Below, piece after piece: positions 34,819 to 38,592 of a stretch of 38,601 nucleotides of DNA (the stretch's first letter is position 1; each line of letters opens with the position of its first letter). The stretch spans positions 1 through 38,601 of the forward strand of contig CACKXF010000012.1 of the NCBI GenBank assembly GCA_902604065.1. The letters are read 5' to 3'. Under the pieces are notes generated by a model. It did not search any database and had not been told where the DNA came from. It worked only from the letters and a program-made list of their open reading frames with translations. The translations under genes were made by a program, and so were the position numbers. The stretch comes from an uncultured Pelagibacteraceae bacterium. Its GTDB lineage: Bacteria; Pseudomonadota; Alphaproteobacteria; Pelagibacterales; Pelagibacteraceae.

Positions 34819-35451
34819 TTAGTTTACAGTTTCGCCTTTATCAGAAGTATTTTCGTACGAATAAAATTTTATAATATTTAATAACGTGCTCATTTTATCA
34901 TCTAAAGTAACGGTTTCCAAAAGTTTTTGTTTTTCCTCATTTGAGATTGGAGCTATCATAGAAAGTGTGTTTATTCTCTGAGCCTCATCAAGTTTTTCAA
35001 ATTCTTTCCAATTGATCATAAGACCATTTTTTTCAAAAAACTTTTTAATCTTTTCCATAAAACCTAATTTATTATATGGGCTTTCATTTTTATCTTGAAC
35101 AAGAAGATCTTTATGAAATTTTTTATAATCCACTTCAAATTCTCTATATTTTTTTTCATTAGTAATCTCTTTTTTAATTTCAAACCTAGTTATTCCAGTC
35201 AAATTTATTAAAACTCTTCCATCAGAAGTCTCTTGATAATCACTTATTTTACCTAGACACCCAACTCTATACACTAGGTTATTCTCTCTTTTTGATTGTA
35301 CCATGCCCATTAATTTATCTTTTCTAAAAGAATCATTTACTAAATCCAAATATCTTTCCTCAAATATATTTAAAGGCAAATTTGTTCTTGGAAAGTATAT
35401 AACTCCGCTTAAAGGAAATACTGGTATTTGTTTTGGAAAATTTTTATCCAT
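34819..35451 (-). CDS. LON substrate-binding-domain protein (no protease domain)
   Basis: 210 residues consisting of a Lon N-terminal domain only. FPLSGVIYFPRTNLPLNIFEERYLDLV is the diagnostic start, then MGMVQSKRENNLVYRVGCLGKISDYQETSDGRVLINLTGITRF. The rest is helical. No AAA+ or protease part is present. Stand-alone LON proteins are common in alphaproteobacteria; function is uncertain, perhaps substrate binding or turnover control. It converges on rho with a 46-base gap that lacks a clear hairpin. Confidence 0.92.
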   Translation of the reverse strand: MDKNFPKQIPVFPLSGVIYFPRTNLPLNIFEERYLDLVNDSFRKDKLMGMVQSKRENNLVYRVGCLGKISDYQETSDGRVLINLTGITRFEIKKEITNEKKYREFEVDYKKFHKDLLVQDKNESPYNKLGFMEKIKKFFEKNGLMINWKEFEKLDEAQRINTLSMIAPISNEEKQKLLETVTLDDKMSTLLNIIKFYSYENTSDKGETVN

Positions 35452-35512
35452 ATTATTAAATATAAGAATAAAAAATTAGAACTGTCAATTTATAATAATG
35501 TGTTTAATTAGA

Positions 35513-36790
35513 TTAAAACTGCTCTGACTCAGTCGAACCTTTCATTGCAGTAGTAGAGCTTTTTCCTGAACTAATAGTATTAGACACTGCATCAAAATAA
35601 GAAGTTCCAACTTCTCTTTGATGTTTTATGCTTGTATATCCGTCTTTTTCTCTTAGAAACTCGTTTTGTTGAATTTCTGAATATGCTTTCATGCCCTCTT
35701 TTTTATATTTTTCAGCTAATTCGAACACAGCTATGTTTTGAGTGTGAAATCCAGCTAAAGTTATAAATTGAAATTTGTAACCCATGGCAGCAATTTTTTG
35801 TTGAAATGATGAGATCTCTTGATCAGATAAGTGTTTTTTCCAATTAAATGATGGAGAACAGTTATAAGCTAACAATTTACCAGGAAATTTTAAATGTATA
35901 GCATCGGCAAATTTTTTGGCCTCTTCAAGATTAGGTGAAGCAGTTTCGCACCATATTAAATCTGCGTAAGGAGCATAAGCTAAACCCCTTGAAATCGCCT
36001 GATCAATACCTTGATTGACATAATAAAAACCCTCTGGAGACCTTTCACCAGTCAAAAATGGTTTGTCGTTATTATCGAAATCATTTGTAATTAGTTTTGC
36101 GGCATTAGCGTCCGTTCTTGCTAATATTATTAACGGTACATCTGCAATATCAGAGGCTAATCTTGCTGCTTGTAAATTTTTTATCATTGTACTTGTCGGT
36201 ACTAAAACTTTACCTCCCATGTGACCACATTTTTTTTCACTAGCAAGTTGATCTTCAAAATGAACACCAGCTGCTCCAGCCTTAATAAATTTTTTGGTTA
36301 ATTCAAAAACATTTAATGGTCCTCCAAATCCTGCTTCTCCATCAGCAATAATAGGAAGCATATAATCTGTTTTTTTGTTAGGTGCCATGTCTCCATTTAA
36401 AACTTCCATATGTTGGATCTGATCTGCTCTTAGTAGAGCATTATTCATTGCCTCCACTAATTTTGGAGCGCTATCATACGGATATAAAGATTGATCAGGA
36501 TACATTTCTCCCGCACTATTAGCGTCAGCAGCTACTTGCCAACCACTTAAATAAATTGCTTTTAAACCAGCTTTTGCATGTTGCACTGCTTGATTTCCAG
36601 ATAAAGAACCAAGAGTATTAACATATGACTCAGAGTTTAGTAAATTCCAAAGCTTTTCAGATTGATTTTTGCTTAATGAGTATTCTATTTTTATAGAACC
36701 TTTCAACTTTTCAACGTCTTCTGGCTTATAATCTCTTTTTATACCTGCAAAACGTCTAAGTTTGAAAGATATGTTACTTTTTGAAGACAT
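35513..36790 (-). CDS. aceA: Isocitrate lyase
   Basis: I take the ATG at 36790 ([14 protein letters not shown]) over the TTG two codons upstream, giving 425 residues. The catalytic loop [14 protein letters not shown] is intact, with DGEAGFGG for Mg2+ and substrate binding and [14 protein letters not shown]. It cleaves isocitrate to succinate and glyoxylate, the entry to the glyoxylate shunt. A 48-codon ORF lies 21 bases upstream on the same strand, and both appear to be driven from the operator-bearing region shared with the divergent regulator. Confidence 0.98.
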
Positions 36791-36811
36791 ATACAATACA
36801 GTTTTACTGAA

Positions 36812-36958
36812 CTAGTTGTTCTCGTGGTTTTGCTCAATATCGTATTGGCTAACACCGCTTGAACCCCAGTCACAATAATCGTCTCTAAGGTAAATAGTTT
36901 GAGACTTGTGCTGATTATACTCTTCTTCAGTTATATGATTTGGTTTATTTTTGTTCAT
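36812..36958 (-). CDS. Small acidic protein, 48 aa, upstream of aceA (unrecognised)
   Basis: Not in the supplied ORF track. From the ATG at 36958: MNKNKPNHITEEEYNQ..., then a central YLRDDYCDWGSSGVSQYD and an Asn/His-rich end. It is soluble and hydrophilic, with a single Cys and a single Trp near residues 29-31. The ATG lies 13 bases beyond a perfect 17-bp operator copy, mirroring the regulator on the other side, and aceA starts 21 bases after its stop, so it is probably the first gene of an aceA operon. No Shine-Dalgarno is evident. No family recognised. Confidence 0.65.
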   Translation of the reverse strand: MNKNKPNHITEEEYNQHKSQTIYLRDDYCDWGSSGVSQYDIEQNHENN

Positions 36959-36971
36959 GTAAATGTTATAA

Positions 36972-36988
36972 TTTACAAAATTTACAAA
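36972..36988. promoter_or_regulatory. Operator copy 1 (aceA side): tandem TTTACAAA
   Basis: TTTACAAAATTTACAAA, two TTTACAAA units with a 9-base period. RamB/ScfR-type regulators of acetate and glyoxylate genes are known to bind TTTGCAAA-like sites, so this is probably the site for the divergent regulator. It ends 13 bases upstream of the small ORF start. Confidence 0.75.
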
Positions 36989-37044
36989 GTAAATAAATTA
37001 ATGATAAATACTTGTAAATTGATAAAATTTAGTGTAAAAATATA

Positions 37045-37061
37045 TTTACAAAATTTACAAA
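37045..37061. promoter_or_regulatory. Operator copy 2 (regulator side): tandem TTTACAAA
   Basis: An exact second copy of the 17-base sequence, ending 7 bases before the regulator ATG and so covering its likely ribosome-binding site or transcript start. An inverted half site TTGTAAA lies between the copies at 37012-37018. The position suggests negative autoregulation. Confidence 0.75.
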
Positions 37062-37068
37062 TAGAAAA

Positions 37069-38493
37069 ATGAGTCAATTTACATTAAAAATAGGACCTAA
37101 AATTAAAGCATTTAGACGCCAAAGAGGTTTGCAGGCTAATAAGTTGGCCGAACAACTTGGTATTTCTCCAAGTTACCTAAATTTAATAGAGGGCGGAAAA
37201 AGAAAAATAGACGGTGACCTATTACTGAAGGTTTGTGACAAGTTAAATATTGAGCTATCAGATCTTACTTCAAAATCCGACCTAAATTTAGAAAATAATA
37301 TAATGGAAATATTAGACGACAGTCTTTTTGAAGACCTGGACATTTTGGGGCCAGAAGTAAAGGATTTAGCATCAACTAATCCAAAAATTGGAAGAGCATT
37401 GGTTAGACTAGGGGATATTCTTAAAAAAAAAGACCATGAATTAGTAAATAAAATTGAAACATTATCGGGGAAAATTGTCGATAGCAGAAAAAATTCATTT
37501 CCTGGCGAAACAGTTTCAGATTTTCTTCAAGAAAACAGAAATTATTTTCCAAAACTTGAAGAATTTGCTAACGAAGTTTTTGAAGAAGTTCAAAATAATA
37601 ATCGCACAAGGTATATAGCATTATGTGAATTTCTTAGATCAAAATACTCAATTACTGTAAAAGATATCATTCCAGAGGAAGGCAAACCTTTTACGAAAAT
37701 ATTCAAAAAGAACAGGAAGGAACTATTATTAAGTGATTATAATTCTTTAGAAACTAAAAAACTTTATGCAGCCGCACAAATTGCTCAAGAAGGAGGAGAA
37801 AAAATAATAGAAGAATATCTATCAAATTTTAATTTTCCATCCGAAGAGTCTAGAAAACTTACAAAGGTAGCATTGTTAAATTATTGTGGAGCAGCTATTC
37901 TAATGCCATATAAACTTTTTCATACAGAATGTAAAAAACTAAAATATGATTTAGAATTATTACAAAACACTTTTTCAACATCATTCGAACAGGTTGCCCA
38001 TAGAGTTACTTGTTTGCAGGATCCGAAATTACCCGGAATACCATTTCATATGTTAAGAGTTGATATCGCTGGAAATATTTCTAAAAGATTTTCTTTGTCA
38101 GGAATTGAAATACCAAGATATGGCGGTGCCTGCCCAAGGTGGAATGTTTATTCTGCTTTTAAAAGACCTGGTGTTATTCAGGCTGCGGTCAGTAAAATGA
38201 CAAATGGAGAAAAATATGTTTGCATAGCAAGAACAGTTGAAAAAGGTATCGGTAGGTATGGCCTTTCAAAAAGTATTCTTTCAATTGGACTTGGTTGTGA
38301 AGCAAAATATGCGAAAGATTTTGTTTATACAGAAAATGTTGATATTAATGATAAAAAGACTGAAATACCTGTCGGCGTGTCATGTAGAACTTGTGACCGT
38401 TTAGACTGCTCTCAAAGAGCTTTTCCTCCGCTTCATAAAAAGTTTGATGTAGATATAAATAATCGAGGCGTATCTGTTTACGTTAACGAATAA
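37069..38493 (+). CDS. XRE-family transcriptional regulator, RamB/ScfR type (short-chain acyl/acetate metabolism)
   Basis: 474 residues. An N-terminal helix-turn-helix (IKAFRRQRGLQANKLAEQLGISPSYLNLIEGGKRK) is followed by a long helical region and an ImmA/IrrE-like domain (KVALLNYCGAAILMPYKLF, FSTSFEQVAHRVTCLQDP) with no HExxH, as in RamB/ScfR. The C-terminus contains the Cys motif CRTCDRLDCSQRAFPPL typical of this family. Relatives control isocitrate lyase and acyl-CoA genes according to acetate or short acyl-CoA levels. It is divergent from the aceA operon across two identical operators, so control of aceA and of itself is very likely. Confidence 0.9.
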   Translation: MSQFTLKIGPKIKAFRRQRGLQANKLAEQLGISPSYLNLIEGGKRKIDGDLLLKVCDKLNIELSDLTSKSDLNLENNIMEILDDSLFEDLDILGPEVKDLASTNPKIGRALVRLGDILKKKDHELVNKIETLSGKIVDSRKNSFPGETVSDFLQENRNYFPKLEEFANEVFEEVQNNNRTRYIALCEFLRSKYSITVKDIIPEEGKPFTKIFKKNRKELLLSDYNSLETKKLYAAAQIAQEGGEKIIEEYLSNFNFPSEESRKLTKVALLNYCGAAILMPYKLFHTECKKLKYDLELLQNTFSTSFEQVAHRVTCLQDPKLPGIPFHMLRVDIAGNISKRFSLSGIEIPRYGGACPRWNVYSAFKRPGVIQAAVSKMTNGEKYVCIARTVEKGIGRYGLSKSILSIGLGCEAKYAKDFVYTENVDINDKKTEIPVGVSCRTCDRLDCSQRAFPPLHKKFDVDINNRGVSVYVNE

Positions 38494-38517: not shown

Positions 38518-38592
38518 GCGGGCATAGCTCAGTGGTAGAGCGTCTCGTTGCCAACGAGAAGGTCGAGGGTTCAAGTCCCTTTGCCCGCTCCA
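38518..38592 (+). tRNA. tRNA-Gly (anticodon GCC)
   Basis: Complete cloverleaf: acceptor GCGGGCA pairs with TGCCCGC, D arm GCTC...GAGC, anticodon stem TCTCG/CGAGA around TTGCCAA (anticodon at 38550-38552), T arm with GGTTCAAGTCC. The 3' CCA is encoded. It starts 24 bases after the regulator stop. Confidence 0.98.

Follow-up and report, generated by a model that had tools for sequence, protein, structure and literature searches.

The aceA-ramB locus

The window, a stretch of 38,601 nucleotides from an uncultured Pelagibacteraceae bacterium, contains a cassette (approximately 35496..38493) between a lon-domain gene (34819-35451, minus strand) and a tRNA-Gly gene (38518-38589, plus strand). It comprises aceA, a small open reading frame (ORF), two predicted operators, and ramB. 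The aceA gene (35513..36790, minus strand) encodes an isocitrate lyase of 425 amino acids that scores 722.9 bits against NF011645 (cut-off 562), and ramB (37069..38493, plus strand) encodes a class 2-like RamB/ScfR regulator of 474 amino acids. The small ORF (36812..36958, minus strand) lies on the strand of aceA, between aceA and operator A, and encodes 48 amino acids with a conserved core, DDxCDWGSSG. The divergent start codon nearest operator A (36958) is therefore that of the small ORF, and the start codon of aceA is at 36790. A scan of genome contigs recovered 80 loci with protein identities of 85-88%, each titled Pelagibacteraceae, Pelagibacterales, or Pelagibacter; aceA, the preceding small ORF, and ramB have the same arrangement in all 80.

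Counterparts of the small ORF in loci L010-L089 and L131-L133 are approximately 48-55 amino acids long with the core RDDHCDWGSSG, and no Pfam or NCBIfam family matched the ORF above its cut-off. Single-base codon differences in frame were 20005 synonymous and 9589 nonsynonymous, as compared with 3358:27820 and 5252:27915 in the other frames, a pattern that clearly points to selection at the protein level. Some other alphaproteobacteria have short ORFs in the same place, with ends reading APDYAPD or APEWAPD.

The product of ramB has the domains that characterize ScfR/RamB proteins, with an N-terminal XRE-type helix-turn-helix (HTH_3, 1e-11), an IrrE-like middle domain (Peptidase_M78, 4.7e-10), and a C-terminal ScfRs domain (2.4e-58). 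The nearest solved structure is that of PrpR from Mycobacterium tuberculosis (6cz6, E 1.1e-62). The score against NF038139, the RamB equivalog model, is 356.3 bits; with a curated cut-off of 700 bits, this marks the protein as a RamB homologue and not an NF038139 equivalog. An Fe-S motif as defined for IsaR (CX2CX4C with an upstream cysteine; PMC6765138) is present, and all four Fe-S cysteines of PrpR (363/447/450/455) are found in the window protein and in 110 of 110 aligned sequences. Among the CoA-contact residues, K347/R348 are conserved in 110/110 and R338 in 109/110. The PrpR CoA-pocket residues F155, K217, and K410 are replaced, so the ligand, presumably an acyl-CoA, may differ from that of PrpR.

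The twin 17-bp sites and their conservation

The sequence-only reading had described two identical 17-bp units 73 bases apart, and the sequence TTTACAAAATTTACAAA is indeed present exactly at 36972-36988 (operator A) and 37045-37061 (operator B), both on the plus strand with a start-to-start offset of 73 bp. The genome, an assembly of 871,858 bases that is 75% complete, contains no further exact copy. The same reading had placed one copy beside each divergent start, and the copies do lie within 7-13 bp of start codons: operator B ends 7 bp ahead of the ramB ATG (37069), and operator A is 13 bp from an ATG that proved to be that of the small ORF, not of aceA. Each operator has two half-sites with an offset of 9 bp. 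The window has just two instances of their common core, TTTAC-N4-TTTAC, both at the TTTACAAAATTTACAAA pair, while shuffled sequences would be expected to hold 0.20 copies and none of 100 shuffles reached two.

Two conserved inverted half-sites lie between the 17-mers. The first, TTGTAAA at 37012..37018 (TTTACAA on the minus strand), is invariant at 7 of 7 bases in 75 of 75 aligned sequences; it is presumed to be a half-site and could possibly also serve as a -35 element. The second, GTGTAAA at 37032..37038 (minus strand), is 20 bp from the first and reads TTGTAAA in most relatives, with TGTAAA invariant in 75/75; it too is a putative half-site, and the ramB promoter may have its -10 region there. 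A promoter consensus scan of the region gave four matches, as compared with 1.9 expected, and structured RNA in the region was limited to the tRNA-Gly.

Conservation was assessed in 83 SAR11-type intergenic regions: the 80 loci, two further genomes of the same family, and the window. The 73-bp spacing is exact in 83 of 83. Operator A has 0-2 mismatches throughout; operator B is identical in 53 regions, has no more than two mismatches in any of the 83, and is 7-8 bp from the ramB ATG in every one. The TTTAC core is invariant at both half-sites of operator A in 75/75 aligned relatives, while several positions between the operators vary freely and the distance from operator to aceA varies among loci. 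In 8/83 regions a third, degenerate box is found 9 bp further on, beside the 73-bp copy.

The probable class of operator

The sequence-only reading had assigned the 17-mers to RamB/ScfR regulators as an AT-shifted form of TTTGCAAA. The assignment is supported by the neighboring ramB gene, the conservation across 83 regions, and the layout described below; the derivation from TTTGCAAA is not. Among 26 distant alphaproteobacterial regions, taken from upstream of regulators with identities under 60% and averaging 47% GC, 12 contain TTTACAAA or TTTGTAAA (shuffle mean 0.53). None contains TTTGCAAA, so TTTAC is the form of the box that alphaproteobacteria use and not a product of AT drift. TTTAC pairs with 9-bp spacing are present in 13 of the 26 (shuffle mean 0.04). 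A count made without reference to any motif gave 47 exact 5-mer direct repeats at a spacing of 9 bp in distant alphaproteobacteria, versus 0-18 at spacings from 6 to 39, and the repeats at 9 bp are mostly GTAAA/TGTAA. Next to RamB genes, the 9-bp TTTAC unit can be followed among alphaproteobacteria to protein identities as low as approximately 34-44%.

In Paracoccus denitrificans, the blocks mutated in the RamB boxes were TGACA-N4-TTACA and TGACA-N4-TGACT, and mutation abolished both binding and expression (PMC10370305). This 9-bp unit is common to the boxes here, so each 17-mer is most plausibly a single class 2 RamB box. As in class 2 operators, there are two near-identical boxes, each a 9-bp-spaced TKACA repeat; the spacer differs, with 56 bp between the 17-mers in 83/83 regions instead of 18 bp. 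Since the direct-repeat layout is that of the class 2 boxes of P. denitrificans, the operator reading is well supported: with a RamB/ScfR gene alongside, the 17-mer is very probably an operator of the RamB/ScfR type. The finding is ordinary in kind and the evidence is solid: the regulator class is known, and what is new is the placing of its operators in SAR11-type bacteria. For alphaproteobacterial RamB proteins, the binding rule also becomes sharper with the 9-bp TTTAC unit.

Extent of the regulon

The motif had been put forward as a means of finding the regulon in other genomes, with a scan for boxes at other targets as the check. In 30 Pelagibacteraceae genomes, the best loci fetched carry aceA and ramB in 30 of 30, and all exact copies listed fall on the aceA-ramB locus. 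One-mismatch copies off the locus number 26, versus 22 for a reversed-pattern control, and the window's own genome has one relaxed match elsewhere, on C15. A RamB regulon beyond aceA-ramB was accordingly rejected, since the 30 genomes hold no exact copy off the locus and malate synthase has none upstream, and the motif loses its proposed use as a regulon finder. In the window's own genome, malate synthase is preceded by a glycine riboswitch (L172 2363-2448, minus strand; G000:C11) and lacks the box, so the two steps of the glyoxylate shunt appear to be controlled separately. By this count, aceA appears to be the only target besides ramB, and the control system appears to be local.

Probable gain and loss of the cassette

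A search of 36 other genomes of the genus and 24 of the order found the RamB regulator in none, and full-length isocitrate lyase was absent from all of 24 same-genus genomes, most of which have malate synthase. Because most of these genomes are incomplete, an absence from any one of them carries little weight; it is the shared pattern of absence that counts. In 9 of 11 genomes of the genus, the cassette is missing and the lon-domain gene lies close to tRNA-Gly; of the other two, G009 has a different insert at the junction (L096) and G003 (L100) gives no reading. The G009 junction also has a second, partial tRNA-Gly copy of 39 bp approximately 2 kb from the whole one (L096 695-769, 2722-2760). 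This resembles insertion of an element into a tRNA gene, and the junction may be especially prone to insertions.

Identity within Pelagibacter was compared with identity to the window. It falls from 97.5 to 82.9% for Rho, from 78.7 to 63.4% for a PPDK-regulator-like protein (PPSR-like), and from 72.8 to 48.7% for hemE, but only from 91.9 to 87.1% for aceA and from 90.6 to 86.0% for ramB. The drop is less than 5 points for the cassette genes and 13-24 points for the vertical genes (rho, PPSR-like, hemE, and hemJ), so horizontal acquisition is the best reading and the inserted 3-kb aceA-ramB unit was probably gained in this way; vertical inheritance is unlikely on the same comparison. The hemH gene was left out because one genome has a replaced copy. 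In two genomes the hemH slot (L100 3479-4402, L167 5764-6705) holds a protein 26-31% identical to the ferrochelatase of the window between conserved neighbors, which suggests replacement of hemH in both. In a quick RamB tree, the window sequence is sister to 82 Pelagibacter-type sequences (support 89) and outside them, and elsewhere in the family the unit lies in other neighborhoods. The possibility that the contig is a binning contaminant was rejected, as Rho is 98% identical to that of same-genus G001 and gene order matches.

The nearest relative, G001, retains a scar of the 3' end of ramB beside tRNA-Gly (L090 4135-4182; VSVYLND versus VSVYVNE). The scar is 37/48 identical in register, a value reached in 0 of 20,000 shuffles, while other relatives have 13-22/48. 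A fully empty site in G001 was rejected with the last ramB codons still present, and the scar implies that the common ancestor had the cassette and that G001 deleted it. A search for direct repeats flanking the cassette gave nothing beyond a trivial 8-mer.

Proposed control and alternatives

The 17-mers are best regarded, with fair though not firm confidence, as operators of the divergently encoded RamB, repressing both ramB and the small-ORF/aceA unit. Each operator would bind presumably one HTH dimer through its two TTTAC half-sites 9 bp apart. Because 73 bp is approximately seven helical turns, the operators are on the same face of the DNA and a tetrameric regulator may bind both together. 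Operator B is 7 bp from the start of ramB, so its occupancy would most simply block ramB transcription, and since the operators are at the starts of ramB and of the small-ORF/aceA unit, repression of both is the most likely outcome. Both aceA expression and the level of RamB would then be self-limiting, and loss of or change in a bound acyl-CoA or [4Fe-4S] cluster would release the two genes together. Regulator, target, and operators make up a single local cassette, which is transferred among SAR11-type genomes. The sequence itself shows the sites, their conservation and fixed spacing, the protein family, the locality, and, through identity comparison, the transfer; binding, repression, cooperation, ligand, and iron response are inferred.

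The family does not fix the sign of control, since RamB of P. denitrificans, the alphaproteobacterial relative studied best, acts as an activator and PrpR turns on its own gene. The same operators could therefore serve activation of aceA, with operator A or the central half-sites recruiting RNA polymerase and operator B only limiting ramB, a reading that deserves attention but is rather unlikely. P. denitrificans RamB uses boxes 82 bp upstream to activate the glyoxylate operon and PrpR activates its targets in M. tuberculosis, and the conserved central half-sites, upstream of both start codons, are in a position more typical of activation. Both full operators, however, are so close to the ATGs (7-13 bp) that an activator could not easily help from there, and a conserved TATAA-like element beyond operator A would place that operator between the -35 and -10 elements.

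A different binding protein is much less probable. In one P. ubique study, a relaxed Fur-box search gave motifs upstream of SAR11_0964 (fur) and of SAR11_1242, which locus-tag order makes the regulator next to aceA (PMC3090418), from which the sites might be taken for Fur- or Irr-type iron boxes; but recurrence of the 9-bp TTTAC unit beside distant RamB genes, the match to validated RamB boxes, and the lack of exact copies elsewhere in the 30 genomes, unlike a Fur regulon, make this very improbable. Least credible of all is that the 17-mers are chance repeats or plain promoter elements without a regulator-specific role. The region is very AT-rich and short repeats in two copies are often due to chance, but conservation effectively refutes this, with invariant cores and exact spacing in 83 regions where intervening positions vary, and the genome counts and shuffles agree. 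Repression by RamB from the twin operators thus remains the preferred reading.

A possible link to iron

SAR11 bacteria are the most abundant heterotrophs in the ocean. Their isocitrate lyase expression is reported to be higher in iron-poor water (PMC6618146, PMC2864753), and in the Southern Ocean to be higher in iron-limited than in iron-fertilized water. The literature searched contained no named regulator for this response and no paper pairing Pelagibacter with RamB. In P. ubique under iron limitation, aceA (SAR11_1240) rose 1.58-fold (p 0.091) and the regulator SAR11_1242 rose 1.60-fold (p 0.054), and the two genes adjoin the strongly induced sfu operon, sfuABC (PMC2864753). By the order of locus tags, SAR11_1242 would be this RamB; it was also up in light. 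Both changes under iron limitation are small. The parallel rise fits loss of an Fe-S-dependent autorepressor, and it also fits a neighborhood effect, since the genes adjoin an induced operon.

A broader proposal can be offered only tentatively and is more doubtful than the operator assignment: the Fe-S RamB of SAR11 would be an iron-shortage switch that raises the glyoxylate shunt through twin operators on ramB and aceA, the whole switch traveling between SAR11 genera as a self-regulated cassette and completing the shunt where malate synthase, with its glycine riboswitch, is already present. With regulator, operator, and Fe-S motif defined, the link between SAR11 isocitrate lyase and iron is open to a direct binding experiment.

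Comparison with known systems

The RamB system of P. denitrificans Pd1222 (PMC10370305) is similar in that the regulator is divergent from glyoxylate-cycle genes and has two boxes of 9-bp-spaced TKACW repeats. Its boxes have a start-to-start offset of 32 bp, with an 18-bp spacer; they lie 82 bp upstream of malate synthase, which they activate. In the window the offset is 73 bp, each box adjoins a start codon, and aceA is the only apparent target. PrpR/RamB of M. tuberculosis (PMC6765138) belongs to the same family and has the same Fe-S cysteines, and its operator has a parallel layout: a 17-bp sequence in which a single base pair separates two 8-bp boxes, present upstream of icl1 as well and otherwise absent from that genome. 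It differs in the box (TTTGCAAA versus TTTACAAA here), in controlling the methylcitrate cycle, and in the three pocket residues noted above. The closest parallel by locus-tag order is the same gene pair, aceA and SAR11_1242, in Ca. Pelagibacter ubique HTCC1062 (PMC2864753, PMC3090418), where the published text neither assigns SAR11_1242 to RamB nor defines RamB operators. The pair in HTCC1062 adjoins sfuABC, while that of the window lies between the lon-domain gene and tRNA-Gly.
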